A stretch of DNA of 64,000 nt from Hydrogenophaga sp. 2FB. GTDB taxonomy: Bacteria > Pseudomonadota > Gammaproteobacteria > Burkholderiales > Burkholderiaceae_C. Below, in pieces: positions 39,136-63,341 of the stretch. The notes beneath the pieces are model-generated. The model was not told the origin of the DNA. It saw only the letters and a program-made list of their open reading frames with translations, and ran no database searches. The stretch lies in NCBI RefSeq assembly GCF_005503365.1, contig NZ_SCML01000036.1, positions 1 through 64,000 on the forward strand. The letters run 5' to 3'. The position numbers and the translations under genes are program-made. The stretch's first letter is position 1. The number at the start of each line of letters is the position of its first letter.

Positions 39136-39138
39136 ACC

Positions 39139-40410: not shown

Positions 40411-40419
40411 ACGGATGCC

Positions 40420-40704: not shown

Positions 40705-40715
40705 GAAGGTCTGAG

Positions 40716-46829: not shown

Positions 46830-47470
46830 ACACCCCGCTGCGCACCGTCGGCACGCCAGGCGATGCAAAGCACCTGGTGGTGATGCTGCCGGGCATGGCC
46901 ATGCGCGCCGAAGAAATGTTTGAAGCCGGGTTTGCCGATGCCGTGGCGCGCCGCGCGCTGCCCTTGGACCTGCTGGCCGTGGATGTGAGTGGCATCGGGC
47001 TGGAGTCGTCCGACACCTGGCATGCGTTGCAAGACGGCCTTCTGACGCCGGAGCGCGCGCGCCGCAAGAGCGTCTGGCTCGGCGGCATTTCGCTCGGCGG
47101 CCTGGTGGCCATGGCGCACGTGGCCGAGCGGCCCGACGTGGTCGACGGGCTGTGCCTGCTCGCGCCCTACCCGGGCAGCCGGCCCAGCGTCAACGTGATG
47201 GACCGCGCCGGTGGCCCCGACCGCTGGCAACCCAGCGAAGAAGACCTGCGCGACCCCGAGTTGCGTGTGTGGCGGTGGCTGCAACGCCCACCGCCCGAGT
47301 TGCCGGTGTTCATCGGGCACGGCCGTGAAGACCGGTTCGCCGACCGCATCCAGCGCGTGGCGGATCGTTTTCCTGCCGCCGCGCGCCACACCGTCGCGGG
47401 CGGCCACGACTGGTCGGCCTGGCTGCCCTTGTGGGAACATTTTCTGGACACCGGTTACTTCGTGGATTGA
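46826..47470 (+). CDS. Alpha/beta hydrolase
   Basis: Hydrolase of 214 residues. The nucleophile elbow is GISLGG near residue 85, an aspartate lies in GHGREDRFAD near 168, and the histidine in AGGHDWSAW near 195. It starts on the MMPL stop as ATGA. Within the cluster it may act as a thioesterase or esterase that releases or edits acyl intermediates; the substrate is not known. Confidence 0.86.
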   Translation: MNTPLRTVGTPGDAKHLVVMLPGMAMRAEEMFEAGFADAVARRALPLDLLAVDVSGIGLESSDTWHALQDGLLTPERARRKSVWLGGISLGGLVAMAHVAERPDVVDGLCLLAPYPGSRPSVNVMDRAGGPDRWQPSEEDLRDPELRVWRWLQRPPPELPVFIGHGREDRFADRIQRVADRFPAAARHTVAGGHDWSAWLPLWEHFLDTGYFVD

Positions 47471-47471
47471 C

Positions 47472-48278
47472 ATGGTGAACACGCGCTGGAAACCCGCTCC
47501 CCTGCTGCACGCATCGGCCGTGGTGCACACCACGGCCGTGCTCGGCACGCTCGCGGTGCCCGCTGCATGGCCGTGGGCGGTGGGCGCGCTGGTGGCCAAC
47601 CACGCACTGCTCGCAGGTGCGGGCCTGTGGCCGAGTTCGCACCTGCTCGGGCCCAACCTCACACGCCTGCCGCCCGACGCGGCACAGCGGCGCGAGATCG
47701 CGCTCACCATCGACGACGGCCCCGACCCAGAAGCGACCCCGCGCGTGCTCGACCTGCTCGACGCCGCAAACGTGAAAGCCAGTTTCTTCTGCATCGGCCG
47801 CATTGCCGAGCAGCACCCGGTCCTGTGCCGCGAGATCGTGCAACGCGGCCACCGCGTGGAGAACCACGGCTATGCCCACAGCAATGCGTTCTCGCTGTTC
47901 GGCCCGGGCGCGATGCGGCGCGACATCGCGCGCGCGCAGGCCACGCTGTCCGACATCACCGGCCAGGCCCCGCGTTTCTTCCGCGCCACCGCCGGCCTGC
48001 GCAACCCGTTTCTCGATCCGGTGCTGCACGGCCTGGGCCTGCAACTGGCCACCTGGACGCGCCGCGCCTACGACACCCGCACCGGCGACCCCGAGCGCGT
48101 GTACCAGCGCCTGGCCCAACACCTGGGCGCGGGCGACATCGTGTTGATGCACGACGGCCATGGCGCCCGCACCCCGGCCGGTGAGCCCGTGATCCTTGCC
48201 GTGCTGCCGCGCCTGCTGCAGACGATCGCCGAACGCCAACTCCATCCCGTCACGCTGACACCCACCCTGCCCACATGA
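47472..48278 (+). CDS. Polysaccharide deacetylase family protein
   Basis: NodB-type carbohydrate esterase of 268 residues with an N-terminal membrane-spanning part (about 1-55). The metal motif begins ALTIDDGPDP near 75, FFCIGRIAEQHP near 100 and the second motif ENHGYAHSN near 130, giving Asp-His-His; the last motif is VLMHDGHG near 225. It may modify a sugar attached to the pigment lipid, possibly in concert with the glycosyltransferase of the reverse arm. Confidence 0.86.
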   Translation: MVNTRWKPAPLLHASAVVHTTAVLGTLAVPAAWPWAVGALVANHALLAGAGLWPSSHLLGPNLTRLPPDAAQRREIALTIDDGPDPEATPRVLDLLDAANVKASFFCIGRIAEQHPVLCREIVQRGHRVENHGYAHSNAFSLFGPGAMRRDIARAQATLSDITGQAPRFFRATAGLRNPFLDPVLHGLGLQLATWTRRAYDTRTGDPERVYQRLAQHLGAGDIVLMHDGHGARTPAGEPVILAVLPRLLQTIAERQLHPVTLTPTLPT

Positions 48279-48997
48279 GCCGTCCATTTGTCCGAACGCT
48301 GGTCGACGAAGCCAGCCAGACCTTCCGCCCGAGCGGCCCCTTCGCGTACCACTACGCGCGCGGCAAGCTCGGCTACGACACCATCTTTCACGAGATGTTG
48401 CGCCGGGGTCTGCTGCCCGAAGGCGGCCGTTACCTGGACCTCGGTTGCGGCCAGGGCAGCCTGTTCGCCTGGCTGCTCGCGGCGCGCCGCGTGTACGAAC
48501 GGGGCCCATGGCCTGAAGGCTGGGCACCGCCACCGGTGCCGCAGCAACTGCGCGGCGTGGAACTGATGCAGAAAGATGTGGAGCGTGCCGCCCTCGCCTT
48601 CGGACCGCAGCACCCGGTGGTGCGCGTGGAACGGGGCGACATGAACGCGGTCGATTTCGGCCGACCCGACGCGATCGTGATCCTGGACGCGCTGCACTAC
48701 TTCAGCCACGAGCAGCAGCGCGAGGTGCTCTCCCGCATCCGCCAGGCGCTGCCGCCCGGTGGCGTGTTCCTCACGCGCATCGGCGACGCCAGCGCGGGCC
48801 TCCCACACCGCATCTGCAACGGCGTGGACCGCCTCGTCACCTACTCGCGCGGCCACCGCCTGCCGCGCCTGTACTGCCGCAGTCTGCAGGACTGGGCGGC
48901 CGAACTGCAGCGCCTGGGTTTCGTCGTGGAAACCGAGCCCATGAGCGGTCGCAAGCCCTTTGCCAACGTGATGCTCGTCTGCCGGGTACCGCACTGA
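48275..48997 (+). CDS. Class I SAM-dependent methyltransferase
   Basis: Methyltransferase of 240 residues with the SAM loop YLDLGCGQGSLFAWLL near residue 53 and the acidic second motif around VERGDMNAVDF near 120, then VILDALHYF. In xanthomonadin-type pathways an O-methylation of the aryl head group is known, and this is the best candidate for it. It overlaps the deacetylase gene by 4 bases. Confidence 0.87.
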   Translation: MSRPFVRTLVDEASQTFRPSGPFAYHYARGKLGYDTIFHEMLRRGLLPEGGRYLDLGCGQGSLFAWLLAARRVYERGPWPEGWAPPPVPQQLRGVELMQKDVERAALAFGPQHPVVRVERGDMNAVDFGRPDAIVILDALHYFSHEQQREVLSRIRQALPPGGVFLTRIGDASAGLPHRICNGVDRLVTYSRGHRLPRLYCRSLQDWAAELQRLGFVVETEPMSGRKPFANVMLVCRVPH

Positions 48998-49002
48998 ACG
49001 GC

Positions 49003-49033
49003 CGCGACCGGTCTGAGACAATGCGCGGTCGCG
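49003..49033 (+). other. Stem-loop between methyltransferase and ketosynthase 2 genes
   Basis: CGCGACCG and CGGTCGCG form 8-base arms around a 15-base loop, followed by TTTTCC. It lies in the only sizeable gap (52 bases) of the forward arm and could attenuate or process the transcript. Confidence 0.45.
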
Positions 49034-49049
49034 TTTTCCGAGCCCCACT

Positions 49050-50240
49050 TTGAAGCCTTTGTCATTAACCGCCACCACCGCCACCACCTGCCTGGGTGTG
49101 GGCCTGGCCGCCCACCGCGCGGCCTTGCACGACAACCGCAGCGGCCTGCAGCCCTGCACGTTCGAAACGGTGGACCTGCCGACCTGGGTGGGCGAGGTGC
49201 CCGGTGTGGACGACCACCCCCTGCCCGCCGCGCTGGCGCGCTACGAATGCCGCAACAACCGCCTGGCCCTGCTCGGGCTGCACGCCGACGGTTTTGAAGA
49301 CCGGGTGCGCGCCGCCATCGCACGCCACGGCGCGGGGCGCGTGGGTGTCTTCATGGGCACCAGCACCTCCGGCATCCTGCAGACCGAACTCGCGTACCGC
49401 GAGCGCGACCCGGTCACCGGCGCGCTGCCCGCCGCGTTCGATTACGCGGCCACGCACAACCCGTATTCGGTGAGCGAGCTGCTGCGCGAACACCTCGGCA
49501 TCACCGGCATGGCCGTCACCATTTCCACCGCGTGTTCGTCCAGCGCCAAGGTGTTCGCCGCCGCCGCGCGGCAACTGGAGCTGGGCACAATCGACGCGGC
49601 GCTGGTCGGGGGTGTCGACTCGCTGTGCCTGACCACGCTGTACGGTTTCGCCTCGCTGGAACTCACCTCGCGCGAGCCCTGCCGCCCCTGCGATGTGGAC
49701 CGCGACGGCATCTCGATTGGCGAAGGCGCGGCCTATGCCTTGCTGGAGCGCGGCGACGCGGCCGAACCGGGCGCCGTGTGGTTGCTGGGCACCGGCGAGT
49801 CGAGCGACGCGTACCACATGTCCGCACCGCACCCCGAAGGCCTGGGCGCGCAACGGGCGATGCAGGCCGCGCTGCGCAGCGCCTCGCTGGACGCGGGCGC
49901 GATCGACTACATCAACCTGCACGGCACGGCCACGCCGGCCAACGACAGCGCCGAAGGCAAGGCCGTGGCCGCGCTGTTCGGCCCGCGCGTGCCCTGCTCG
50001 TCCACCAAAGGCGCGACCGGCCACACCCTGGGCGCGGCCGGCGCGGTGGAAGCGGTGCTGTGCGCGATCGCGCTGGTCGATGGCTTCGTGCCCGGCAGCC
50101 CCGGCACACGCACACTCGATCCGGCCATCCCGATCAACGTCCCGTTGCAAGGCGCGCCGGCACCCTTGCGCCACGCGCTCACCAACTCGTTTGGCTTCGG
50201 TGGCAGCAATTGCAGCCTGGTGCTGGGGGTGCGCGCATGA
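49050..50240 (+). CDS. Beta-ketoacyl-ACP synthase (ketosynthase 2)
   Basis: Condensing enzyme of 396 residues with the complete triad: cysteine at about 162 in STACSSSAK, histidine at about 291 in NLHGTAT and histidine at about 325 in KGATGHTLG. The C-terminus FGFGGSNCSLVLG is normal. The only in-frame start near the conserved N-terminus is a TTG, without a clear ribosome-binding site, so expression may be low or the start misread. It is followed by a chain-length-factor-like protein, suggesting a heterodimer. Confidence 0.9.
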   Translation: MKPLSLTATTATTCLGVGLAAHRAALHDNRSGLQPCTFETVDLPTWVGEVPGVDDHPLPAALARYECRNNRLALLGLHADGFEDRVRAAIARHGAGRVGVFMGTSTSGILQTELAYRERDPVTGALPAAFDYAATHNPYSVSELLREHLGITGMAVTISTACSSSAKVFAAAARQLELGTIDAALVGGVDSLCLTTLYGFASLELTSREPCRPCDVDRDGISIGEGAAYALLERGDAAEPGAVWLLGTGESSDAYHMSAPHPEGLGAQRAMQAALRSASLDAGAIDYINLHGTATPANDSAEGKAVAALFGPRVPCSSTKGATGHTLGAAGAVEAVLCAIALVDGFVPGSPGTRTLDPAIPINVPLQGAPAPLRHALTNSFGFGGSNCSLVLGVRA

Positions 50241-51106
50241 GCGCCGCACCGGGCCGTTCCCAAGCAAGCTCGCACCGCAGCCCGCAGGGCGAAGGTAGTC
50301 CAGTGAACGCTCCCGCCCCCTTGACCGCCTGGATCACCGGTGTGGGCTTCATTGCCCCCGGCCTGCCCGACTGGCCCAGCGCACGCGCCGTGCTGCGCGG
50401 CGAGCAGCCCTGGGTGTCCGCGCCCTCGGTGCTGCCGGCCCCGGCGATCCTGCCGCCGGCCGAGCGCCGCCGCGCCAGCCGCGTCATCAAGCTCGCGCTC
50501 GGGATTGGCCTGGAAGCCGCGGCGGGTGCCGATGTGTCGACCCTGGCCACCGTGTTCAGCGCTTCCGGCTCCGACGGCCACAACTGCCACGCGCTGTGCG
50601 AGCAACTGGCCACCGACGACCGCCACGTCTCGCCCACGCGCTTTCACAACTCGGTGCACAACGCGCCCGCGGGCTACTGGGGCATTGCCACGAAGTCGAT
50701 GGCGCCCTGCCAGGTGCTCTGCGCTTTTGATGGCAGCTTCGGCGCGGGCCTGCTCGACACGCTGGCGCAGGTCGCGCTCGACCAGCAGGCCACGCTGCTG
50801 ATGGCCTACGACAGCGAGTACCCCGAACCGCTGTTCGCCAAGCGCCCCGTGCCCGACTGCGCCGGCGTGGCGCTGCGCCTGGAACCGCAAGCGTCCGAAC
50901 ACGCACTGGCGCGCATCACCGCGTGGACCACCGAGGCGCCCGCGCCAACCTGGAACCACGCCACGCTCGAACCGCTGCGCGCGTCCATCCCGGCCCTGCG
51001 CGCCCTGCCCCTGCTCGAACAACTCGCGCAAGGCCACAGCGGCGAAGTCTGCCTGGACTACCTGCCCGGCCTGCAACTCGCGGTGCGGCTGGACGTGTTG
51101 ACCTGA
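50237..51106 (+). CDS. Beta-ketoacyl synthase-like chain length factor
   Basis: A 289-residue, N-terminal ketosynthase-like protein without the usual C-x-S active site; instead HNSVHNAPAGYWGIATKS and LCAFDGSFGAGLLDTL are seen, as in the chain-length-factor partners of aryl polyene ketosynthases. Two starts are possible. The ATG at 50237 overlaps the ketosynthase 2 stop. A GTG at 50303 follows GAAGGTAG and begins MNAPAPLTAWITGVGF, where homology starts. The 66 bases between look like a GC-rich dispersed repeat. Confidence 0.82.
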   Translation: MSAAPGRSQASSHRSPQGEGSPVNAPAPLTAWITGVGFIAPGLPDWPSARAVLRGEQPWVSAPSVLPAPAILPPAERRRASRVIKLALGIGLEAAAGADVSTLATVFSASGSDGHNCHALCEQLATDDRHVSPTRFHNSVHNAPAGYWGIATKSMAPCQVLCAFDGSFGAGLLDTLAQVALDQQATLLMAYDSEYPEPLFAKRPVPDCAGVALRLEPQASEHALARITAWTTEAPAPTWNHATLEPLRASIPALRALPLLEQLAQGHSGEVCLDYLPGLQLAVRLDVLT

Positions 51107-51537
51107 TGGACAAGGCCTGGATCGCCGCGCGCATTCCCCACCAGGGCGACATGTGCCTGCTCGACGCGGTGGACGACTGGTCTGCCGACCACATCGTGTG
51201 CCGCGCCACCAGCCACGCCGACCCGAAGAACCCGCTGCGCGCGGCAGGGCGCCTGGGTGCCGCCAACGGCATTGAGTACGCGGCGCAGGCCATGGCGGTG
51301 CACGGCGCGCTGGTGGCCGACGCGAACACCGCGCCGCGCCAGGGTTACCTCACCAGCGTGCGCAGCGTCACCCTGCACGCCGACCGCCTCGATGATCTCG
51401 ATGGCCCGCTGGGCGTGCGCGCCGAGCGCCTCTCGGGCGATGCGAACAACGTGCTCTACCGCTTCACCGTCCACCACGGCGACCGCTGCCTGCTCGAAGG
51501 CCGTGCTTCCGTTGTGCTGGACGCGCAAGCACTCTGA
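51106..51537 (+). CDS. Hotdog-fold dehydratase-like protein 2 (ApeP type)
   Basis: A 143-residue hotdog protein. The start ARIPHQGDMCLLDAVDDWSAD holds the active-site histidine in PHQGDM, and AAGRLGAANGIEYAAQAMAV forms the central helix. It belongs to the second dehydratase type of aryl polyene clusters, thought to act with the ApeI-like partner (42714) as a heterodimer. The start codon overlaps the preceding stop by one base. Confidence 0.85.
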   Translation: MDKAWIAARIPHQGDMCLLDAVDDWSADHIVCRATSHADPKNPLRAAGRLGAANGIEYAAQAMAVHGALVADANTAPRQGYLTSVRSVTLHADRLDDLDGPLGVRAERLSGDANNVLYRFTVHHGDRCLLEGRASVVLDAQAL

Positions 51538-51554
51538 ACAAGGAAGGAACTGCG

Positions 51555-52274
51555 ATGAAACGAGCCCTCGTCACCGGCGGCAGCGGCGGCATCGGCGCGG
51601 CGATCTGCCAGCGCCTGGCCGCCGATGGCCACCACGTCATCGTGCACGCGCACCGCGCGCTGGACAAAGCCGAAGCCACCGCGCAAGCCATTCGCGACAG
51701 CGGCGGCAGCGCCGAAGCCGTGGCCTTTGACGTGACCGACCGCGACGCCTGCGCCACCGCGCTGGCCACGATCGTCGAAGCCGGCGCGGTGCAGATCCTG
51801 GTGAACAACGCCGGCATCCATGACGACGCGGTATTCCCCGGCATGAGCGGCGAGCAGTGGGACCGCGTGCTGGACGTGTCGCTCAACGGCTTCTACAACG
51901 TGACGCAGCCGCTCACCATGCCGATGATCCGCACGCGCTGGGGCCGCATCGTCACCATCACCTCCATCGCCGGCGTTATGGGCAACCGGGGCCAGGTGAA
52001 CTACGCGGCCGCCAAGGGCGCGCTGCACGCGGCGAGCAAGTCGCTCGCGCTGGAGCTGGCCACACGCGGCGTCACCGTGAACGCGGTGGCGCCCGGCATC
52101 ATCGAAACCGACATGAGCGCGGGCGCGTTCGATGCCGAGGCGATCAAGCGCCTGGTGCCGATGCAGCGCGCGGGCCGCGCCAACGAAGTGGCGGAACTGG
52201 TGGCGTTTCTGGCATCGGACAAAGCCGCTTACGTGAGCGGACAGGTGATCTCGATCAATGGGGCGATGGCTTGA
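51555..52274 (+). CDS. fabG: 3-oxoacyl-ACP reductase (FabG type) of the aryl polyene cluster
   Basis: Short-chain dehydrogenase of 239 residues. The NADPH loop is VTGGSGGIGAAI at 7-18, NNAG lies near 85, the catalytic serine in TSIAGV near 138, and the tyrosine/lysine in NYAAAKG near 151-155. It reduces the beta-keto group between condensation and dehydration. A GGAAGG site precedes the start. It is the last gene of the forward arm; a hairpin repeat follows. Confidence 0.92.
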   Translation: MKRALVTGGSGGIGAAICQRLAADGHHVIVHAHRALDKAEATAQAIRDSGGSAEAVAFDVTDRDACATALATIVEAGAVQILVNNAGIHDDAVFPGMSGEQWDRVLDVSLNGFYNVTQPLTMPMIRTRWGRIVTITSIAGVMGNRGQVNYAAAKGALHAASKSLALELATRGVTVNAVAPGIIETDMSAGAFDAEAIKRLVPMQRAGRANEVAELVAFLASDKAAYVSGQVISINGAMA

Positions 52275-52348: not shown

Positions 52349-53266
52349 TTACACGGAAGCACCCCAGCCGCGCACCAGTTCTTTCAATGTCGACGACGCC
52401 TCCGGCGTCAACGGCCAGGCCGAGGGCGGCCGGGTTGCACCGCAGTCCAGCCCCATGAACGCCAGCGCCGCCTTGACGACGGTGACGTTGGTGCCGTTGT
52501 TCTCCTGCGCGCGCAGGGTCTCGAACGGCAGGACCGATTCGATCAGCACTTGTGCACCCGCGTAGTCACCCTTGTCCAGCGCGGCGTGGATTTCCATCGA
52601 GCGCTCGGGCAGCACATTGATCAGTCCCGACGTGAACCCACGCGCGCCGGCCGCGTACAACGCAGGCGCCCAGTTCTCCGCCAGGCCGTTCACCCAGGCC
52701 AGCCCGCGGTCTCGCGTGCGGCGGATGGCTTCGGACAGCAGCAGCGGCGTGGGCGACGCCCACTTCACGCCCACCACTTCGGGGATGGCGCACAGCGCTT
52801 CGATGGCCGCCAGGCCAATGTTCTCGTTGCGCAAATACAGCACCACGGGCAGGCCGTTGCCGGCCTCGGCCACGCGTTGCACATAGGCCACCACGCCGCG
52901 CGGGGACACGAACGGGTCGGGCGGCTGGTGCACCATGAGCGCGTCGGCGCCCGCGCGGTACGAGGCCGCGGCCAGGTCGCAGGCTTCTTCGATGCCGCGC
53001 CCCACACCGCCCAGCAGCGGCACGCGCCCTGCAATGTGTTCGGCGCTTGCCGCCACCATGGCCTCGGCTTCGCTGGCGCGCAGCGCGTAGTACTCGCTGG
53101 TGTTGCCGTTGGCCACCAGCACGTGCACCCCCGCCTGGATGGCGCGGTCCACGATGGGTTTTTGCAGGTCGGGGGCAATGCGGTTCTGCGCGTCGAAGGG
53201 CGTGACGAGAATGCCCGAGATGCCATCGAGTGCGGAGCGCACCGCGGCGCGGTCAAAAGTCGGCAT
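52349..53266 (-). CDS. DapA-like aldolase/dehydratase of an acid-sugar pathway
   Basis: Member of the dihydrodipicolinate synthase family, 305 residues. The barrel begins GISGILVTPFD, the GNTSEYY segment lies near 55, the proton-relay tyrosine in LPVVLYLRNEN near 143, and the Schiff-base lysine in VVGVKWASP near 167. Clustering with an enolase-superfamily dehydratase, a Bug receptor and a GntR regulator argues for a 2-keto-3-deoxy sugar acid aldolase or dehydratase rather than lysine synthesis. It is the last gene of the leftward operon. Confidence 0.88.
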   Translation of the reverse strand: MPTFDRAAVRSALDGISGILVTPFDAQNRIAPDLQKPIVDRAIQAGVHVLVANGNTSEYYALRASEAEAMVAASAEHIAGRVPLLGGVGRGIEEACDLAAASYRAGADALMVHQPPDPFVSPRGVVAYVQRVAEAGNGLPVVLYLRNENIGLAAIEALCAIPEVVGVKWASPTPLLLSEAIRRTRDRGLAWVNGLAENWAPALYAAGARGFTSGLINVLPERSMEIHAALDKGDYAGAQVLIESVLPFETLRAQENNGTNVTVVKAALAFMGLDCGATRPPSAWPLTPEASSTLKELVRGWGASV

Positions 53267-53300
53267 GAAATGTTCCTGAGTCGATGGAGAAGTAAAGGGC

Positions 53301-54503
53301 TTAAACGTGCTCGGTGCGGCGAACGATCGCGGTCGGATCGTTGCGCACGGCGGGGCTGAGTGCGGTGCCCAGGCCCGGCTCGGTGGGCCGCGCCAGAAAG
53401 CCCCGGTCCAGCACCGGCAGCTCGGTCACCAGGTCGCGGTAGAAGGTGGCCATGAAGGCGCGCACGACTTCCTGGAAGATGGCGTTGGGCGAGGCCAGCG
53501 CCAGGTGCAGCGATGCCCAGAGGACCACGGGCCCGGTGCAGTCGTGCGGCGCGATGGGCTTCTGGTACGCATCGGCCAGGGTCGCGATCTTGCGCGCCTC
53601 GGTGATGCCGCCGCACCACGACAGGTCGGGCATCACGATGTCCACCGCGTCGGCGGCCAACAGGTCGCGGAACGCGCCTTGCGCCGCCAGCGTCTCGCTG
53701 CCGCACACCGGAATGCCCGAGAGCCGGCGGTAGTCGGCCAGCGCGCCGGGGCTGTCCATCTTGATCGGGTCTTCGGCCCAGAACGGCCGGTACTGCCGCA
53801 GCTCGCGCGCGATCGCCAGCGCCGAGGTGAGGTTCCACATGGAGTGCAGCTCGCACATGATCTCGATGCGGTCGCCCACGGCCAGCCGGATCTTCTCGAA
53901 CACTTCGAGCCCCTGGCGCATCGAGGCGCCGCTCACGTACTGGCCATCGGTCTGCGCGGCGGCGCCGTCGAAGGGCCAGATCTTCATGGCGCCGAAGCCT
54001 TCGTCCAGCAGGCTCTGCGCGAGTTCGGCCGGGTTCTCGATGAAGGCGATCTGGTCGTCGTAGCGGCCGCGCACCTGCGATTGGCCGGGCTCGATCAGGC
54101 GGCGCTGGAGGCTCTTGCTGTTGTAGTCCACGCCCGCGCAGGTGTTGTAGACCCGCATGCGTTCGTGGCAGGCGCCGCCCAGCAACTGGTAGATCGGCTG
54201 GTCGGTAACCTTGCCGAAGATGTCCCACAGCGCGATGTCGAGTGCCGATGCGGCGCGCGTTTCCACACCGCTGCCATTGAAGCCGAGGTAACCGCGAAAC
54301 AGCGTCTTGTGCAGGCGCTCGATGTCCAGCGGGTTCCGGCCCAGCACCAGTGGCGCGGCCATGGTGTGCAGATAGGTTTCGACCGCCGCCGCCCCGCGGA
54401 AGGTTTCACCCAGGCCGATGAGGCCGGCGTCGGTTTCGACCTCGACCCACACGAGGTTGGGCTGGTGAGGCAGGCGGAAGGTCTGGATCGCGGTGATCTT
54501 CAT
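53301..54503 (-). CDS. Mandelate racemase/muconate lactonizing enzyme family sugar-acid dehydratase
   Basis: Enolase-superfamily enzyme of 400 residues. The N-terminal cap is MKITAIQTFRLPHQPNLVWV; the KxW-type catalytic segment is GFGAMKIWPFD near 165. Metal ligands lie in MCELHSMWN, WAEDPIKMD and GSETLAAQ (about 215-270), and a catalytic histidine in PIAPHDCTGPVVLWAS near 325. These features fit acid-sugar dehydratases; the exact sugar cannot be told. The start at 54503 was preferred to longer frames that enter the receptor gene. Confidence 0.89.
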   Translation of the reverse strand: MKITAIQTFRLPHQPNLVWVEVETDAGLIGLGETFRGAAAVETYLHTMAAPLVLGRNPLDIERLHKTLFRGYLGFNGSGVETRAASALDIALWDIFGKVTDQPIYQLLGGACHERMRVYNTCAGVDYNSKSLQRRLIEPGQSQVRGRYDDQIAFIENPAELAQSLLDEGFGAMKIWPFDGAAAQTDGQYVSGASMRQGLEVFEKIRLAVGDRIEIMCELHSMWNLTSALAIARELRQYRPFWAEDPIKMDSPGALADYRRLSGIPVCGSETLAAQGAFRDLLAADAVDIVMPDLSWCGGITEARKIATLADAYQKPIAPHDCTGPVVLWASLHLALASPNAIFQEVVRAFMATFYRDLVTELPVLDRGFLARPTEPGLGTALSPAVRNDPTAIVRRTEHV

Positions 54504-54537
54504 GGGGTCTTCGATGCGATGAAAGAAAGAGGTCGGC

Positions 54538-55503
54538 TCACTCGGCGGTGATCTTCTGGGCGCGGATGAGATCGGCCCACTTGTCGTGCTCCTGGCGCAT
54601 GTGCTGGCCGAAGGACGCGGCACTGCCGCCGCCGGCACTGATGCCCGCTTCCTGCAGCGTCTTGCGCACGGTCGGGTCTTGCAGCGCGCGGTTGAACGCG
54701 GCATTGAGGCGCTCGACCACGGCGGATGGCGTGCCGGCCGGCGCGCCGATGGCGTACCAGGGCTCGATGATGAAACCCTTGTAGCCCAGCTCTTCCATGG
54801 TGGGCACCTCGGGCAGGTTGGCCGAGCGGGTCTTGCCGGTGACGGCCAGCGCCTTCACGCGGTTGCTCTTGATGAAGGGCAGGATGGAGGGCTCGTTGTC
54901 GAAGAACACCTGCACCTGCCCGCCGAGCAAGTCGGTGATGGCCGGGCCCGAGCCCTTGTAAGGCACGTGCAGCAGCGGAACGCCCGAGACCTTCTTGAGC
55001 ATCTCGCCGCCCAGGTGGTTGGACGCGCCGACACCGGAGGACGCATAGCTCAACTGGCCGGCGCGCGCCTTGGCCAGCAGGTCGGGCAAGGTGCTGATAC
55101 CGGTCTGTGGGCCGACCGTGAGCACGTTGATGGAGTAGCCGAGCAAGGCGACCGGCGCCACGTCCTTGAACAGGTCGTAGCCGGGGTTGGCGTACAGGCT
55201 GGCGTTCACCGCGCAGTTGCCGATGCTGCAGAGAAAGATGGTGTAGCCATCGGCCGGCGCTTTCACCGCCGCCACGGTGCCGATGTTGCCCGTGGCACCC
55301 GGGCGGTTGTCCACCACGATGGACTGGCCGAGGTCTTTCGCCGCGGCATTCGCAAACAGCCGCGACACCATGTCGCCCGTGCCGCCCGGGGGCACCGGCA
55401 CGATCATGCGGATGGGCTTGTTGGGAAAGTCCTGCGCGCCGGCGGGCGTGAGGCCCAACGTGGCGGCAAGGGAAAGGGCCAATGTGATCCAGCTTCTGCG
55501 CAT
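54538..55503 (-). CDS. Bug/TctC family receptor of the acid-sugar cassette
   Basis: Periplasmic solute-binding protein of 321 residues with a signal peptide (MRRSWITLALSLAATLGLTPAGA) and the conserved KPIRMIVPVPPGGTGDMVSR and VVDNRPGATGNIGTVAA. It is first in the leftward operon, 46 bases from the GntR operator, so the ligand is probably the sugar acid degraded by the two following enzymes. Permease genes are absent. Confidence 0.9.
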   Translation of the reverse strand: MRRSWITLALSLAATLGLTPAGAQDFPNKPIRMIVPVPPGGTGDMVSRLFANAAAKDLGQSIVVDNRPGATGNIGTVAAVKAPADGYTIFLCSIGNCAVNASLYANPGYDLFKDVAPVALLGYSINVLTVGPQTGISTLPDLLAKARAGQLSYASSGVGASNHLGGEMLKKVSGVPLLHVPYKGSGPAITDLLGGQVQVFFDNEPSILPFIKSNRVKALAVTGKTRSANLPEVPTMEELGYKGFIIEPWYAIGAPAGTPSAVVERLNAAFNRALQDPTVRKTLQEAGISAGGGSAASFGQHMRQEHDKWADLIRAQKITAE

Positions 55504-55548
55504 GGTTTGTCTCCAGGTGTGTTGTCGTCTACCGCGTGGCATTCATCC

Positions 55549-55563
55549 AATCATACGATGATT
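55549..55563. promoter_or_regulatory. GntR-type operator AATCAT-ACG-ATGATT
   Basis: A perfect 15-base inverted repeat with 6-base arms in the divergent region between the receptor and regulator genes. The size and form fit FadR-subfamily GntR operators. Confidence 0.68.
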
Positions 55564-55616
55564 AAATGACGGAAGTCCAGCGGGCGTACCCGGCACGCGT
55601 GGTTATGCTCGGCGGC

Positions 55617-56318
55617 ATGGCTCCTCCGCGTCTTCGAAATTTCCATCATCAACTGGTCGATGCCGTTGGGCGCGACATCGTGAGCGGCGCCTATCCGGAA
55701 GGCGCGCAGATGCCGACCGAGCCCCAGTTGGCCGAGGCCTATGGCGCGAGCCGCATGGTCGTGCGCGAGGCCATGAAGAGCCTGGCGGCCAAGGGCATGG
55801 TGTCGATCCGTCCGCGCACGGGCACGCACGTGCTGCCGCGTGCGCAATGGCACCTGTTCGACCCAGCGGTGCTCAGTTGGCACGGCGAGGCCGACTTCGA
55901 CACCAGTCTGCTCGCCGACTTGCTGGAGTTGCGCCTGGCCATCGAGCCGCTGGCGGCCCGGCTGGCCGCCGCGCGCGCCAGCGAAGCGGATGTGGCCGAA
56001 TTGCACAGCGCCTACAACGCCATGGCGGGGGCGGGCCGGCGCACCGACTACATCGAGGCCGACCTGCGCTTCCACGGCGCGGTGGTGCGGGCGTGCGGCA
56101 ACGTGTTCATCCAGCAACTGGAAACGGCGCTGTCAGCGGTCTGGAAGACCAGCTTCCAGGCCTCCAGCAGCGCCACCGGCGCGCCCGACAGTGCGGCCTT
56201 GAAACTGCATCAGAAGCTGCTCGTCGCGATCGAGCGGCACGACGCCGCTGGCGCCGAAAAAGCCGTGCACGGCCTGATCGCTCGGGCCACCACGCGCATC
56301 GAAGGCCGAGCGACGTAA
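55617..56318 (+). CDS. FadR-subfamily GntR transcriptional regulator
   Basis: Regulator of 233 residues. A winged helix (PTEPQLAEAYGASRMVVREA, about 35-54) is followed by an all-helical FCD effector domain with LLELRLAIEPLAARLAA near 105 and the metal-site histidine of LRFHGAVVRACGN near 155. FadR relatives with this domain often sense sugar acids. The start at 55617 (MAPPRLRNF) is preferred; an ATG at 55566 would add 17 residues directly beside the operator. It should control the leftward cassette and itself. Confidence 0.89.
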   Translation: MAPPRLRNFHHQLVDAVGRDIVSGAYPEGAQMPTEPQLAEAYGASRMVVREAMKSLAAKGMVSIRPRTGTHVLPRAQWHLFDPAVLSWHGEADFDTSLLADLLELRLAIEPLAARLAAARASEADVAELHSAYNAMAGAGRRTDYIEADLRFHGAVVRACGNVFIQQLETALSAVWKTSFQASSSATGAPDSAALKLHQKLLVAIERHDAAGAEKAVHGLIARATTRIEGRAT

Positions 56319-57539: not shown

Positions 57540-58772
57540 CTAAGCCGGCTTCGCGAGCACGCCCGCGTCCTTCGCCTCCACGGCAGACATCCTGTGCCCG
57601 GCCCGCCGCAACTTCGGCTCCACGATCGGTACCGTCAGCATCGTGCTGGCCACCGCCATCAGCAGCAGCGCGGTGAAGGTGTCGTTGGTGATCAGGTGTT
57701 TGTCGAGCAGGACGTTGACGAAGATGATCATGATCAGCGCCTTGGTCTGCAACAACCAACCGATGATGGAAGCTTCGCCCGGGCCCCACTTCAGCACCCG
57801 GCCCGCCACGTGCACGCCCAGCAGCTTGCCGCCGATCGACGCCACCAGCAGCACCGCCGCGATGCCGAACACGGCCATGCCGCCCACGTCCCAATTCGTG
57901 CGCAGGCCGGTGGAGATGAAGTACACCGGCATGATCACCAGCAGCACGTTGTGGCGCAGCTGGTCGAGCTTCTTCTGATCGAACCAATCGGCGTCCATGA
58001 CCACGCCCGCGAGGAACGCGCCCACCATGTAGTGCAGGCCGGCCCAGTCGGCACCGAAGGCGCAGACCGCGAGCCAGATCAGGCTGACGGCCCAGCGGTC
58101 GTTGGCGGGCAGGCGGCGCATCAGGTGGCGGAAGGCCCAGCTCAGGACCACGAAGGCCACCAGGAAAGCGCCCTGTCGGCCCACGCGCGTCCAGTCCATC
58201 AGGATCAACGCGAGCACGCCCCAGATGGCGATGTCGTCCAGGCTGGCGTAGCGCAGGATGCGCTGGCCCAGCGGGTGGCGCAGCACCTCCAGCTTTTCCA
58301 TCAGCAGGATCAGGATCGGCAACGCGGTGACGGCACAGGCCATGCCCACGCCCGCGACGAATTGCCACGGCCGTGCGGCCTCGCCGATCCAGCCCGGCAT
58401 GTCGAGCATGAACAGCGCCGCGGCGCTGCCCAACAGCAGGGGCGCGCCCAGCGCGAGCCCCGCCGTGATGCCGCTCTCGCGCCGGTGCTTCCACGCCTGC
58501 TTCAGATCGAGCTCGGTGCCCGCGATCATCACGAACAGCATCACGGCCCACCACGCAATGCCGTTGAGCGACTGGATCACCGCGGGGTTGAAGACGAACT
58601 GGTGGAACTCGGGGTAGGCCTTGCCGAGCACGCCCGGCCCGAGCAGGATGCCGGTGATGATCTGCACCACCACCAGCGGCGCCCAATAGTCGGTGCGCCC
58701 CAGGCGCCAGATGAGCCAGGGCACGGTGAAGATGATCGCCATGGCGATCAGGAAGATTTCGGTCGTGTTCAT
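57540..58772 (-). CDS. Kef-type cation:proton antiporter
   Basis: Membrane transporter of the CPA2 type, 410 residues with about 12 hydrophobic segments. Landmarks are ITGILLGPGVLGK near 35, FVMIAGTELDLKQAW near 80 and YASLDDIAIWGVLALI near 175 with the paired acidic residues of the ion site. There is no C-terminal TrkA domain. It is the last gene of the reverse arm, coupled to the glycosyltransferase gene by a 4-base overlap. Its reason for being in a pigment operon is unclear; ion balance for export is a guess. Confidence 0.88.
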   Translation of the reverse strand: MNTTEIFLIAMAIIFTVPWLIWRLGRTDYWAPLVVVQIITGILLGPGVLGKAYPEFHQFVFNPAVIQSLNGIAWWAVMLFVMIAGTELDLKQAWKHRRESGITAGLALGAPLLLGSAAALFMLDMPGWIGEAARPWQFVAGVGMACAVTALPILILLMEKLEVLRHPLGQRILRYASLDDIAIWGVLALILMDWTRVGRQGAFLVAFVVLSWAFRHLMRRLPANDRWAVSLIWLAVCAFGADWAGLHYMVGAFLAGVVMDADWFDQKKLDQLRHNVLLVIMPVYFISTGLRTNWDVGGMAVFGIAAVLLVASIGGKLLGVHVAGRVLKWGPGEASIIGWLLQTKALIMIIFVNVLLDKHLITNDTFTALLLMAVASTMLTVPIVEPKLRRAGHRMSAVEAKDAGVLAKPA

Positions 58773-59542
58773 GTCTTGTTGTCGCTCCCTTGAAGTCGAC
58801 GCCACAACAGCAGCGGCAGTCGCATGACGAAACCCGTGAACAAGCGCGTGTGCATGCCGCTCAGCAGCAGGTTGTCGCGCACGTATTTGAAATGCGAGAC
58901 ACCGCCTTCCTGCGGCGTGAAGTAGCGCACCGGCGCGTCGATGTTGATCGGGCGCACGCCCGCCCAGCACAGGCGCACCACGGCTTCGGGATCGAAGTCG
59001 AAGCGGCGCATGAAGCTGGTGCTCTGCATCACGCGCACCAGCGGCGCGATCGGGTAGACGCGAAAACCGTAGAGCGAATCGCCGATGCCGAAGCTCAGCG
59101 TTTCCAGGTTCGCCCAGCCGTTGGAGAGCTTGCGTCCCATCACCCGCACCCAGGGTGCCTCCGCCCCGAACACCGGCTTGCCCAGCACCATGGCGTCGGG
59201 CGCGGCCAACGAGGCGGCCATGAAGGTGGGGATCAGCGTCTCGGGGTGCTGGCCGTCGGAGTCCATGGCGAGCGCGTGCGTGAAGCCGGCCTGCGCCGCG
59301 AGCGTGATGCCGTGCAGCACCGCCGCGCCCTTGCCCTGGTTCCGCGGCAACACGATCACGCGCAGGCCCGGGTCGCGCCGGGCCTCCTCGTTGAGCCAGT
59401 CGGCCGAACCGTCGGTGCTGCCATCCACCACGACCCACACCGGTGTCCATTGCGTGCGCGCGGCGCGCACCGTGTCCAGCACCTTGCGGCCTGGGTTGTA
59501 GCTGGGAATGAGGACCAGGTGCGAGGTGCTGGATGCGGGCAT
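58769..59542 (-). CDS. Family 2 glycosyltransferase
   Basis: GT-A fold glycosyltransferase of 257 residues: LVLIPSYNPGRKVLDTVRAA near the start, VVVDGSTDGS near 38, NQGKGAAVLHG near 68 and the metal-binding ALAMDSDGQHPETL near 92. The family uses nucleotide or dolichol-type sugars. Within the reverse arm it may glycosylate the pigment's lipid or aryl head. It lies 3 bases after the acyltransferase gene. Confidence 0.9.
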   Translation of the reverse strand: MPASSTSHLVLIPSYNPGRKVLDTVRAARTQWTPVWVVVDGSTDGSADWLNEEARRDPGLRVIVLPRNQGKGAAVLHGITLAAQAGFTHALAMDSDGQHPETLIPTFMAASLAAPDAMVLGKPVFGAEAPWVRVMGRKLSNGWANLETLSFGIGDSLYGFRVYPIAPLVRVMQSTSFMRRFDFDPEAVVRLCWAGVRPINIDAPVRYFTPQEGGVSHFKYVRDNLLLSGMHTRLFTGFVMRLPLLLWRRLQGSDNKT

Positions 59543-59545
59543 GTG

Positions 59546-60343
59546 TCAGGCGGCGGCGGTCGAGGCGGTCGGTGTAGCGGAAGGGGCGAGCTCGGCGCGG
59601 AAATAGGCTTCCAGCTCGGCGGTGAAGGCGCGCGCATCGTGGGGCACGTCGAAGCGTTTGCCCAAACGGATGCGGCAGGTCAAGGGCAGACGGGGCTTGC
59701 GCCACAGCGGCCAACCCTTGCCCAGGTAGGGGCTGGAGAATTCGACGATCAGGGTCTGCACCGGCACACGGGCGCGGGTGGCGATCAGCGCGGTCGAACG
59801 CGACAAGGGGTTGAGCGGGTTCGCGGGGTAGCCCAGGGTGCGCGTGCCCTCGGGGAAGATCACCACCTGCGCGCCCTGCTCCAGTTCGCGGCGGCAACTG
59901 AGCACGGCGCTGAGCAGGTGGTCGTTGCGCACATACCGCGCCATGCGCGCGCCCGCGCCGAACAAGGGGTTGTCCATGATGTCGGCCTTCATGAAGCAGA
60001 CCGCATTGGGCAGGCGCGAAGTGATCAGCACGGCGTCGAGCAGCGAGGGGTGGTTGGCCGCGATCACCATCGGCCCCTGGTCGCGCAGCTGGTCGATGGC
60101 GGCGAGGTCGAAACGGCACGCGCACAGCGTGCGCAAGATGCCAACGTAGAGGCCGAAGCCGCGCATGATGGCCTGGCGGCCGAGCCAGCGCCCAGCGCGG
60201 TGCGGCAGCACCGGGTGCAGCGCAATCGCCAGGGGTGTCCAGCTCAGGCACACGAGCGCCAGCGAGCTCAGGCCCACGACCATGGCGATGTGCTCGTACA
60301 CGCTCCACAGCGGCGAGGTGGAGTGGGGCTGCGTGTGGTTCAT
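59546..60343 (-). CDS. PlsC-type 1-acyl-glycerol-3-phosphate acyltransferase homologue
   Basis: Membrane-associated acyltransferase of 265 residues with two N-terminal hydrophobic helices. The active-site motif is ANHPSLLDAV (H-x4-D) near 95 and the second motif VIFPEGTRTLG near 162. It differs in family from the LpxL-like enzyme of the forward arm, so the cluster encodes two acyltransferases. A GTG at 60352 overlapping the upstream stop is an alternative start. Confidence 0.88.
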   Translation of the reverse strand: MNHTQPHSTSPLWSVYEHIAMVVGLSSLALVCLSWTPLAIALHPVLPHRAGRWLGRQAIMRGFGLYVGILRTLCACRFDLAAIDQLRDQGPMVIAANHPSLLDAVLITSRLPNAVCFMKADIMDNPLFGAGARMARYVRNDHLLSAVLSCRRELEQGAQVVIFPEGTRTLGYPANPLNPLSRSTALIATRARVPVQTLIVEFSSPYLGKGWPLWRKPRLPLTCRIRLGKRFDVPHDARAFTAELEAYFRAELAPSATPTASTAAA

Positions 60344-60348
60344 GGCAC

Positions 60349-61347
60349 TCACAGCGCGTGCACCGCCTGTGACTCGATCTCGACCAGCAGATCGGCGCGG
60401 CACACGTCGGCCTGCACGAACACCACGGCCTGATCGCCCAGCAGCGGCTGGAGCGCGCGTTGCACCGTGTCGCTGTCGCCGGCGTGGCGCACATAGACGC
60501 GGTGGCTCAGCCCACGCAGCGAGAACGGCTGCGCCGAGCGCGCGCGGCGGTTGGCTTCCCGCACCACGCTTTCCAGGTTGCGCACGGTCTCCAGGCACTG
60601 CGCCGCCACGTCGTTGTTGTGCAGGGTTTCGTGGCCGACGATGCTGGCCGTGCCGGAGATGAACAGCGCTTCCTGCCCCGGCGGGTACACCAGCGCGGCG
60701 CGCGAGAACGTGGGCGCGCGCGGACCGTACTGCGGCGGGTAGGCCCAGGCGCTCACCTGGCGCGGGTTCTCCACCGTCACCACGGGCGACGCGCCGGCCA
60801 TGAAGGCCACCGAGAGCGGGCCTTCGCGCACGCCGAGCGCGCACGCCGCCGGCACCTGGCCGCCGGTTTCCTGGCGCGCCTGCACGAAGGCGTCGTAACG
60901 GCCCTGGTTGAACTGGCGGTAGCGCTCCAGGCCGTGGCTGTCTTCGTTGATGCGCGCGATGTAGTTCCAGACGCGCCAGAGGTGCGGGAGCTGCTGTTCG
61001 CGCAGCAGGCAAAAGAGGCGTTCGTACAGCACCCGGCTGGTCGCTTGCAGCGGGGGCACGCCGGGCTGTGCCGGGTCCTCGGTTTCATCCAGTTCGATGA
61101 CGCCGTAAAGCACCTGTTCATTGCGGCACCACTGGATACCGTGGTCCCTGCCTTGCTGCAGCGCGCCGTCGGTGGACCAGCATTCGCGCAGCGAGGTCTC
61201 GCTGGACGACAGCAAGGGCGCCAGCAGGTGTTGCTGCGGCCAGGCGACAGCGTGGGTGCCGGGCGCGGTGCCCACGAGCACCCCACCCAGTTCTTTTCCG
61301 TTGGCGCGGCCGTCGGCCGTGCGCCAGATCTCGTATTGCAAAGTCAC
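60349..61347 (-). CDS. FkbO/Hyg5/XanB2-type chorismatase (hydroxybenzoate starter synthesis)
   Basis: Enzyme of 332 residues related to chorismatases, which hydrolyse chorismate to pyruvate and a hydroxybenzoate or dihydroxy acid. The diagnostic segment is FISGTASIVGHETLHNNDVAAQ (read as two blocks near 245-266), with NYIARINEDSHGLERYRQFN near 130. In Xanthomonas, XanB2 makes 3-hydroxybenzoate, the starter of xanthomonadin. Which isomer forms here cannot be read by eye. The GTG start overlaps the stop of the halogenase gene as GTGA. Confidence 0.87.
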   Translation of the reverse strand: MTLQYEIWRTADGRANGKELGGVLVGTAPGTHAVAWPQQHLLAPLLSSSETSLRECWSTDGALQQGRDHGIQWCRNEQVLYGVIELDETEDPAQPGVPPLQATSRVLYERLFCLLREQQLPHLWRVWNYIARINEDSHGLERYRQFNQGRYDAFVQARQETGGQVPAACALGVREGPLSVAFMAGASPVVTVENPRQVSAWAYPPQYGPRAPTFSRAALVYPPGQEALFISGTASIVGHETLHNNDVAAQCLETVRNLESVVREANRRARSAQPFSLRGLSHRVYVRHAGDSDTVQRALQPLLGDQAVVFVQADVCRADLLVEIESQAVHAL

Positions 61348-62681
61348 GTGGGATGGGCTTGTACGGCCTCGTCGGTCGGTCGGATGTTGCGGCGGCGGTT
61401 GCGCCAGGCGTTGAACGCGCGCCGCGGCTGGGTGATGTTGGCGATGAAGTACAGGGTCTTGAAGATGAACATCGAACGCCCGATCGGCGCGTTGCCATAC
61501 ACGTCACCCGCCAGCGTGGAGAGCAGCGCTTCCTTCACACGGAAGATGTTGCGCGGCCCCATGAAGAAGTCTCGCATGATGGGGTTGGTCACGCGGTAGA
61601 TGAACCACGAGAAGGCTTTGGGGCCATGGCGGCTCTGGCGGTCAAAACGCTTGAGCGCGGCGCGCGCCTGAGAGGGGTTGCGCAAGCAGGTGTCGATGGT
61701 TTCCGCGCCGAGCTCGCCGCCGATCATGGCCAGCCAGACGCCCGAGGAAAAGACCGGATCGATGAAGGTATAGGCGTCGCCCACCATCAGGTAGTTCTCG
61801 CCATGGTTGCGCTGCGCGGAATAGGAGAAGTTGCCGGTGGCTTCCACCGGGCTCACCAGGGACGCGTCTTTCAGGCGCTCGGCCAGGCCCGCGCAACTCG
61901 CGATGTTGTCCATCAGGAACTGCTGCACGCTGCGCCCCTGGCGCGTTTTCATGTGGTACGGCCAGGTCACCATGCCCACGCTGGTGGCGCCGCCCGTGAG
62001 CGGGATGAACCAGAACCAGCCGTGGTCGAACCAGAAGATGGTGATGTTGCCCTCGGCCATGCCCTCGTTGCGCCGCGCGTTGGCAAAGTGGCCGTACACC
62101 GCCGCGCTGTTGTGGCTGGGGTTGCGCTCCTTGATCTTGAAACGGGAGGCAAGAAATGTGTCACGCCCGGAAGCGTCGACGAGAAACTTCGCGTCCCACA
62201 CCACCTCGCGGCCGTCGTCGTGCCGGGCCTGCACGCGCACCGAGCGGTCGGGCAGGAATTCCACCGAGCGCGCCTGGCAGCCTTCGTGCACCTCGGCACC
62301 TTGGCGCTGGGCGTTGCGCACCAGGATTTCGTCGAACTCGGCGCGCCGCACCTGGTACGCGTACGGCATGGACTTGTCCCACGCGTCGGCGAACTCGAAA
62401 GACTGCGTGTGCGCGTGGTGCGGCGAGACAAACTCGGCGCCCGGCTTGTATTGCCCGATGGCGCGCACCTCGTCGGCCACGCCCAGGCGTTCCAGCAAGG
62501 GCAGGTTGGCCGGCAGCAGCGATTCGCCGATGTGAAAGCGCGGGTGGTGCTCCTTCTCCAGCACCACGACATGGTGGCCCTTTTGGGCCAGCAAGGGCGA
62601 AATGGTGGAACCGGCGGGGCCCGCGCCGATCACGAGCACGTCGCAGCTGCGGTGTTCGATTCCCTGTGGATTCTGGTTCAT
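61344..62681 (-). CDS. Flavin-dependent halogenase-like oxidoreductase
   Basis: FAD enzyme of 445 residues. The dinucleotide loop is VIGAGPAGST near 17, followed by HIGESLLPANLPLLERLG near 50. Two halogenase signatures are present: GWFWFIP (GWxWxIP) near 221 and FIDPVFSSG (FxxPxxSxG) near 306. These separate halogenases from plain monooxygenases, so halogenation of the aryl head is a reasonable inference, matching brominated xanthomonadins. It is the first gene of the reverse arm, preceded by a candidate promoter. It could also be a non-halogenating relative. Confidence 0.86.
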   Translation of the reverse strand: MNQNPQGIEHRSCDVLVIGAGPAGSTISPLLAQKGHHVVVLEKEHHPRFHIGESLLPANLPLLERLGVADEVRAIGQYKPGAEFVSPHHAHTQSFEFADAWDKSMPYAYQVRRAEFDEILVRNAQRQGAEVHEGCQARSVEFLPDRSVRVQARHDDGREVVWDAKFLVDASGRDTFLASRFKIKERNPSHNSAAVYGHFANARRNEGMAEGNITIFWFDHGWFWFIPLTGGATSVGMVTWPYHMKTRQGRSVQQFLMDNIASCAGLAERLKDASLVSPVEATGNFSYSAQRNHGENYLMVGDAYTFIDPVFSSGVWLAMIGGELGAETIDTCLRNPSQARAALKRFDRQSRHGPKAFSWFIYRVTNPIMRDFFMGPRNIFRVKEALLSTLAGDVYGNAPIGRSMFIFKTLYFIANITQPRRAFNAWRNRRRNIRPTDEAVQAHPT

Positions 62682-62742
62682 GTGGAGATCCCTTGAAGAC
62701 CCTGGAGTGTGCCTGCTGCGCGGTGCCATGGATGTGGGAAAA

Positions 62743-62772
62743 ATTGTACCGAGCGTACGCCGAAGGTTGTAA
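62743..62772 (-). promoter_or_regulatory. Candidate promoter of the reverse arm
   Basis: On the minus strand TTACAA (62772-62767), 18 bases, then TACAAT (62748-62743). The -10 box is one base from consensus, the -35 box weaker. The start would be near 62736, 55 bases before the halogenase gene. The rest of the 231-base divergent gap is AT-rich near 62820-62870 and contains ACAATTGT at 62824. Confidence 0.5.
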
Positions 62773-62912
62773 CCGAATGGGGGCGTGCGGGGCCCATGGT
62801 TGGGCGATGTCGAAGGGGCATCAACAATTGTCCATGCGCAATTTTGATTCGACAAAGACAATAATCGAAGACATCCGTTACCCCCCAAAACCAGCCCTCG
62901 GAGACCCGCGCC

Positions 62913-63341
62913 ATGACCGACGAACACACACGCATTCGCCTTGAGGCCACGAACTGGACCGTGCGCACGCTGAAGGGTTTCATCGAACAGGCCGGGCCCT
63001 TGTGGACGCGCCGTGAAGACGGTGGTTGGGCGTACGGCCTGCTGTGCGACGCCACGCACCTCAACCCCGCCGCGCGCATGCACGGCGGCGCGCTGGTGAC
63101 CCTGCTGGACCACGCCATCAGCACGGTGGCCTGGGAGGCCTGCGAGCGCGCGCCCTGCGTCACCTTGCAGCTCGACACGCAGTTTCTCGGCGCGGTGCGC
63201 GAAGGCGAGTTCGCCGAGGCCCGGGCGGGTGTGTCGCACAAGACCGGCGGCCTGGTCTTCATGCGCGGTGCCGTGACCGTCGACGGCCAACCCGTGCTGA
63301 TGGCACAGGCCATTCTCAAAGTCCTGCCCACCACGCGCTGA
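62913..63341 (+). CDS. PaaI family thioesterase
   Basis: Hotdog thioesterase of 142 residues. The conserved HLNPAARMHGGALVTLLDHA near 49 carries the Asn/His/Gly motif and the aspartate of the central helix; the last strands read GGLVFMRGAVTVDGQPV. Members hydrolyse aromatic or aliphatic acyl-CoA. The start has GGAGAC upstream. It faces away from the halogenase gene and precedes an acyl-CoA synthetase, so both may belong to a separate acyl-CoA pathway. Confidence 0.9.
   Translation: MTDEHTRIRLEATNWTVRTLKGFIEQAGPLWTRREDGGWAYGLLCDATHLNPAARMHGGALVTLLDHAISTVAWEACERAPCVTLQLDTQFLGAVREGEFAEARAGVSHKTGGLVFMRGAVTVDGQPVLMAQAILKVLPTTR

Follow-up and report, generated by a model that had tools for sequence, protein, structure and literature searches.

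The 64,000-nucleotide stretch of Hydrogenophaga sp. 2FB analysed here (contig NZ_SCML01000036.1, positions 1 to 64,000; the window) carries, in an operon for an aryl polyene pigment, the gene for a flavin adenine dinucleotide (FAD)-dependent enzyme of the halogenase type, which we call FDH1. We consider FDH1 to be probably a halogenating tailoring enzyme of the pigment with a likely preference for bromide, a reading that starts from its predicted fold, its motifs, a conserved lysine, an operon recognised by gene spacing and the association of its relatives with aryl polyene clusters. That xanthomonadins can be brominated has been known since the 1970s. The family of FDH1 is widespread, all rows examined retain the lysine, and a gene placed like FDH1 occurs in a cluster whose product contains no halogen. 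The Hydrogenophaga system, in a non-pathogenic genus, makes the annotation-based assignment testable as to which enzyme halogenates, when, and what. Genomes and loci of our comparisons are labelled G and L, respectively.

Halogenase motifs and predicted fold of FDH1

The open reading frame (ORF) of FDH1 runs on the minus strand from an ATG at 62681 to a TGA at 61344–61346, and contains the following features.
61344–62681, minus strand: FDH1, FAD-dependent halogenase-type enzyme of 445 residues, ArcA/XanB1-like by position (ORF, Pfam, PDB, alignments and fold).
62610–62627, minus strand: GAGPAG, residues 19–24, FAD-binding Rossmann motif (GxGxxG; sequence and Pfam FAD_binding_3).
62445–62447, minus strand: codon of K79, the catalytic-lysine position of flavin-dependent halogenases by alignment to solved halogenases.
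62001–62021, minus strand: GWFWFIP, residues 221–227, GWxWxIP motif, with W222, W224 and P227 invariant in both alignments described below (83 and 134 rows).
61740–61766, minus strand: FIDPVFSSG, residues 306–314, FxxPxxSxG motif, with F306, P309 and G314 invariant in 134 rows and S312 kept in 133 of the 134.

The initial annotation had recognised both halogenase motifs in an FAD enzyme at 61344–62681, and database comparisons bear this out. FDH1 is matched by the Pfam families FAD_binding_3 (E=1.3e-20) and Trp_halogenase (PF04820, E=2.3e-30), while 40 PDB sequences match it at E<=1e-3 in phmmer, headed by the halogenases FasV (8zop), CndH (3e1t), Mpy16 (5buk), PltA (5dbj) and ChlB4 (7fco). 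A chance match to the motifs is ruled out by the Pfam, PDB and fold results.

The AlphaFold2 model of FDH1, built from the 49-row alignment A1, has a mean predicted local distance difference test score (pLDDT) of 91.5 and a predicted template modelling score (pTM) of 0.90, and its fold, as modelled, is closest to those of solved flavin halogenases. VIA-align Z scores against the model are 47.9 for FasV, 47.2 for 3nix, 45.8 for Bmp2, 45.2 for PltA, 45.1 for ChlB4, 44.9 for Mpy16, 42.3 for CndH, 41.5 for RadH and 37.6 for CmlS; hydroxylases begin at 35.7, after ten entries that comprise halogenases and 3nix. Foldseek places FasV, PltA, 3nix, CndH, Mpy16, ChlB4, RadH, CmlS, Bmp2, CtcP and PltM first, followed by PraI, a p-hydroxybenzoate hydroxylase. 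In sequence and predicted fold, FDH1 is thus no nearer to solved aromatic hydroxylases of the p-hydroxybenzoate hydroxylase type than to halogenases, and the halogenase lysine and motifs are present.

FDH1 shares its predicted fold, FAD site, motifs and lysine with PltA, Mpy16, ChlB4, Bmp2, CndH, FasV, CmlS and RadH at 25–35% identity, the lysine and motifs having been compared position by position for FasV, CndH, Mpy16, PltA, ChlB4 and CmlS. The first glycine of GWxWxIP, present in FDH1, is lacking in Mpy16, PltA and ChlB4. The known enzymes differ in their substrates, halogenating pyrroles, tyrosyl units and polyketides, with PltA, Mpy16 and Bmp2 acting on carrier-protein-bound substrates; to our knowledge, none of them comes from an aryl polyene cluster. 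3nix, a Cytophaga hutchinsonii flavoprotein from structural genomics, is nearly equal in fold and resembles distant relatives of FDH1 (group C, below) in other aryl polyene-like clusters.

Conservation of the catalytic lysine

Halogenation by flavin-dependent halogenases needs a lysine, and in the sequence alignment K79 of FDH1 coincides with the lysines of PltA, Mpy16, ChlB4, FasV, CmlS and CndH, in the last at chain position 76, which we take to be the published number of its catalytic lysine. Homologues were compared in a close set, comprising the best 80 of 204 loci (none titled Xanthomonas or Azoarcus BH72), in which the nearest named relatives are Hydrogenophaga sequences of 88% identity and below. 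The K79 position holds a lysine in 83/83 rows of a first alignment (the 80 loci, the query and the paralogue of the same genome twice, with nine weak rows and L001 left out). It does so again in a 134-row alignment, in 81/81 close rows, 37/37 rows of about 44–63% identity and 16/16 rows of 30–38%, and is also invariant in A1. The middle group (B, about 44–63%) of the 134-row alignment lost one of its 38 rows, L101, which is cut by a stop, and does not include L085; the most distant (C, 30–38%) holds 16 of 18 weak class-level matches. As a control, L003, an FAD protein from this genome that is only distantly related, has a gap at the K79 position and neither motif. The initial annotation had held that lack of the lysine would speak against a halogenase; our alignments find K79 present and invariant, and that objection falls. 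With K79 in place the enzyme could in principle carry out the chemistry, which does not show that halogenation happens in fact.

FDH1 in an aryl polyene operon

The genes downstream of FDH1, on the same strand, are the following.
60349–61347, minus strand: chorismatase (FkbO/Hyg5/XanB2-like), PF21168 at E=1e-37; its start overlaps the FDH1 stop by 4 bp (junction GTGA).
59546–60343, minus strand: lysophospholipid-type acyltransferase (PF01553), 5 bp after the chorismatase.
58769–59542, minus strand: glycosyltransferase family 2 (PF00535), 3 bp after the acyltransferase.
57540–58772, minus strand: Na+/H+ antiporter-like protein in an arcG-like position (PF00999, on 57540–58763), sharing a 4-bp ATGA overlap with the glycosyltransferase.

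Judged by this spacing, it is well supported that the five genes from FDH1 to the antiporter form a tight operon, and with it the earlier claim that FDH1 and the chorismatase are cotranscribed. The chorismatase itself is assigned by its Pfam match; against NCBIfam TIGR04444 it scores 234 bits, under the 325-bit cut-off. A scan for sigma-70 promoters and terminators 5' of FDH1 (62600–62980) found none, a negative that carries no weight either way.

The opposite strand carries the other half of the pigment cluster (38845–52274).
49050–52274, plus strand: aryl polyene ketosynthase, chain-length-factor-like protein, dehydratase and ketoreductase, the first two by ketoacyl synthase Pfam matches, the last two by sequence and arc order.
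48275–48997, plus strand: S-adenosylmethionine (SAM) methyltransferase of the cluster (PF13489).
38845–48278, plus strand: acyl carrier proteins (ACPs), first ketosynthase, AMP-ligase, dehydratase-like protein, LpxL-type acyltransferase, LolA-like protein, MMPL exporter and polysaccharide deacetylase (ORFs; AMP-binding and MMPL named from Pfam, the others by sequence inspection and published arc order).

The gene order resembles that of the published arc cluster of Azoarcus BH72 (PMC3949708; here and below, statements on cited papers hold for excerpts of them). That FDH1 lies inside the pigment operon, as first annotated, holds: it truly belongs to an aryl polyene cluster, one of the xanthomonadin/arcuflavin type. 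The two halves of the cluster are separated by unrelated genes at 52349–56318 (DHDPS-like, enolase-superfamily, TctC receptor and GntR regulator); this block has no DNA match in eleven related loci, some of which do not cover the place, except for 100 bp in L004.

Association of FDH1 relatives with aryl polyene clusters

In 77/80 close loci the enzyme is accompanied by one or more further aryl polyene genes, counting the chorismatase; the three loci without any (L011, L035, L054) are contigs under 6 kb. Other polyene genes also accompany all 20 class-level loci of 44–64% identity, in L120 just the chorismatase plus a weak match to a ketosynthase, while at 30–38% identity at least three are present in 11/16 loci and none or one in 5/16. 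On plasmids, where 65 records gave a match and five were fetched, polyene clusters accompany three of the four relatives of 50–62%.

The chorismatase is a less constant companion: 50 of the 80 close loci have one, and none was found near the enzyme in the other 30 (e.g. L009, L016, L023, L042, L064). In the Polaromonas loci L009 and L016 the acyltransferase lies within about 150 bp of the in-cluster enzyme, in L023, L042 and similar loci a gap of about 0.9 kb separates the two, and in neither arrangement was a chorismatase found near; in several Hydrogenophaga genomes it sits elsewhere, away from the in-cluster enzyme. Relatives of at least 44% identity occur in 32 class-level genomes besides our own (370 genomes, best four candidates per genome scored), with the chorismatase within 3 kb in 18, within 7 kb in one, elsewhere in five and absent in eight. 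Eight of the 13 genomes with chorismatase elsewhere or absent were looked at and all show polyene genes beside the enzyme, a ninth (L153) having a weak match only. Overall, the chorismatase is present in 24/32 genomes carrying a relative versus 42/337 others, counts uncorrected for kinship.

In a quick tree with long branches, no clean outgroup root and 28 of the 80 close loci, the polyene-linked sequences form one set of 66 rows with the FDH2 copies and the plasmid locus L156 (both below), apart from characterised halogenases (Shimodaira–Hasegawa-like approximate likelihood ratio test, SH-aLRT, 99). By sequence, FDH1 belongs to a clade that travels with aryl polyene clusters. Within the operon it is more conserved than the chorismatase in 43/43 loci in which four operon genes were found, mean identities being 70.0% for FDH1, 52.4% for the chorismatase, 58.4% for the acyltransferase and 73.9% for the glycosyltransferase.

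Comparison with published pigment systems

An annotated halogenase gene beside the chorismatase of an aryl polyene cluster has been published before. The arcuflavin cluster of Azoarcus BH72 has arcA (azo3921), annotated as a halogenase, and arcB, which encodes a XanB2-type chorismatase (PMC3949708). As in the window, this pair is followed by an acyltransferase, a glycosyltransferase and a Na+/H+ antiporter and both polyene halves are present, whereas in BH72 genes for an outer-membrane protein and an additional reductase lie in between and the two arc loci are unlinked. FDH1 is likened to BH72 ArcA by gene order, the sequence comparison being with Azoarcus sp. L1K30 (L074), at 64% identity. 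The arcK and arcT mutants of BH72 are colourless; the excerpts describe none in arcA (PMC3949708).

Xanthomonas pigments carry 0–2 Br, and a halogenase gene is present in the clusters of two Xanthomonas species; among the clusters drawn for comparison, halogenase genes are absent in Lysobacter enzymogenes and Xylella, and the Lysobacter pigment, from a cluster without the gene, gave no Br isotope pattern (PMC3691225). The legend to the xanthomonadin cluster names an 'H = halogenase' and, separately, XanB1 as a 'putative reductase/halogenase'; XanB1 is listed directly before XanB2, a likeness to FDH1 in which orthology is judged by position alone (PMC3838355). No assayed halogenase of any aryl polyene cluster appears in the excerpts on these pigments.

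A probable halogenating role for FDH1 and the points that weigh against it

At the level of sequence and predicted fold, FDH1 passes the tests applied for a flavin-dependent halogenase, the CmlS equivalog cut-off excepted. From there we infer halogenation itself, together with the halide, substrate, timing, carrier-protein tethering and reductase partner. In the proposed reaction a separate flavin reductase would supply reduced FAD, which with O2 and halide would give hypohalous acid (HOX) in the FAD pocket; HOX would then move to K79, which would hand X+ to an electron-rich 3-hydroxyphenyl ring originating from chorismate via the neighbouring chorismatase. Most likely, the ring would be attached to the pigment ACP at that point, as part of the aryl starter or of the aryl polyene. 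Of the halides, bromide would be the more probable, and whether the reaction occurs probably depends on how much halide is available.

Several points weigh against this assignment. No NCBIfam model scores over its cut-off among the best 25 of the 59 families compared with FDH1, and the CmlS equivalog NF033113 gives 201.8 bits against a cut-off of 900. The halogenases PltM and CtcP are missing from the 50 VIA-align rows while hydroxylases appear there, unlike in Foldseek, which places both above the hydroxylases. The lysine and, with one exception, the motifs are kept in all 16 relatives of 30–38% identity, and 3nix (28% identity, function unknown) carries the same lysine and motifs, with the first glycine of GWxWxIP replaced; lysine and motifs are therefore not a specific test and no proof of halogenation. 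The Variovorax plasmid relative (L156, 52%) has no polyene gene within 9 kb. Finally, the arcuflavin of BH72 is C41H52O4, its polyene is described as non-brominated, and the medium stated is lysogeny broth (LB) with 0.5% NaCl, the excerpts mentioning no bromide supplement (PMC3949708). By our own arithmetic this formula has room for no halogen, nor for oxygen beyond that of a methoxyphenyl polyene and a dialkylresorcinol.

Since the like-placed arcA-arcB pair gave a halogen-free pigment, the step from enzyme to halogenated pigment, which we infer, is weakened. The analogy with xanthomonadins, from which the initial annotation had judged a halogenated head group plausible, is reasonable and cuts both ways: the halogenase-type enzyme, K79 and the Xanthomonas pigments with their halogenase genes speak for such a head group, and arcuflavin speaks against it.

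Alternative roles

It is less probable, if still to be reckoned with, that FDH1 is a halogenase-fold flavoenzyme that does not halogenate, namely a monooxygenase, oxidase or dehydrogenase that uses FAD in the aryl polyene pathway and has retained the lysine and motifs for another reason. The halogen-free arcuflavin would fit such an enzyme, as would 3nix and the group C relatives, which share the residues without a known activity and, in 11/16 of the group C loci, lie in aryl polyene-like clusters; hydroxylases also come straight after the halogenases in the VIA-align list. The arcuflavin formula, without extra oxygen, argues equally against net hydroxylation, and the lysine is invariant in every row, whereas L003 of the same genome has neither it nor the motifs.

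We think it improbable that FDH1 is a true halogenase of something other than the pigment head group, such as free 3- or 4-hydroxybenzoate (3-HBA, 4-HBA), a dialkylresorcinol or a diffusible signal. In Xanthomonas, chorismatase products have a signal role. The idea gains some weight from the chorismatase neighbour, whose products 3-HBA and 4-HBA have uses beyond the pigment in Xanthomonas, including coenzyme Q8 (PMC3949708), and from the 30/80 close loci with no chorismatase found near the enzyme. Against this, relatives of FDH1 stay with polyene genes where the chorismatase is elsewhere or absent.

Cryptic halogenation, in which the halogen is put on and later removed or displaced to leave a halogen-free pigment, would reconcile the invariant lysine with arcuflavin, but no dehalogenating or displacing enzyme was identified, though no search for one was made, and Lysobacter makes its pigment from a cluster without a halogenase gene (PMC3691225); we regard it as very improbable. 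That FDH1 is an unused or degenerating remnant in the cluster is hardly credible: two genomes described in the next section have lost most of the gene or are without it, but its conservation exceeds that of the chorismatase in all 43 loci, no internal stop occurs in any in-cluster-type match of the Hydrogenophaga search, and both of those genomes carry FDH2.

FDH2 and natural losses of the in-cluster enzyme in Hydrogenophaga

The same genome encodes a paralogue of FDH1, FDH2 (G000:C35:44407-45681), which is 53% identical to it. FDH2 and a UbiE-type methyltransferase (PF01209) are arranged tail-to-tail (L084:9399-11490), and no polyene genes occur within 9 kb of FDH2. Across 67 Hydrogenophaga genomes, our own included, the in-cluster type is present in 40 (in one split over two contigs), FDH2 in nine and the chorismatase in 40; one or both enzymes occur in 38/40 genomes with the chorismatase versus 4/27 without it. 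All nine FDH2 genomes have the chorismatase and the tail-to-tail methyltransferase, with FDH2 52–53% identical to FDH1 (the eight further loci being L134, L135, L167 and L170–L174), and the FDH2 stretches examined hold no polyene core gene, with weak reductase or methyltransferase matches in some. Relatives of the methyltransferase (41–56%) occur in 49 other loci and, at that threshold, not in the window.

What is new here is that two Hydrogenophaga genomes keep the pigment cluster without an intact in-cluster enzyme while carrying the FDH2-methyltransferase pair. In G003 an in-frame internal deletion has cut the in-cluster enzyme to about its first 27 and last 50 residues (L159:10650-10856), with the cluster retained from deacetylase to chorismatase; in G432 the cluster is present with no enzyme before the chorismatase and a gene that looks by eye phasin-like in its place. 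As both genomes without an intact in-cluster enzyme carry FDH2, this suggests that FDH2 can stand in for it, in two cases only, with an assembly error possible in G003. Two further genomes, G008 and G433 (82% and 62% complete), have the chorismatase and neither enzyme, and no other cluster gene lies in the stretch around it. There is a slim chance that a halogenase with its full catalytic set is retained across aryl polyene clusters for a transient, cryptic halogen that steers the chain or ring instead of decorating the pigment, so that its product would normally escape notice, with the FDH2-methyltransferase pair as a second form of that step.

A third halogenase-type enzyme of about 545 residues lies just upstream of the in-cluster gene in ten loci, eight of them titled Hydrogenophaga (L042:6266-7909, PF04820, and L023, L024, L025, L028, L030, L032, L035, L037 and L043). 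WxWxIP and FxxPxxSxG are present in 10/10 and an RKFG lysine in 9/10, the tenth being cut at its start; in two sequences compared this lysine aligns with K79.

A putative retron reverse transcriptase gene, not found in the other loci compared except L002, which is the same place, lies beside FDH2 in our own genome, where L084:4931-8959 gives PADLOC matches to a type II-A retron (RT_II-A, NDT_II-A) and to the SIR2-like PDC-S25.

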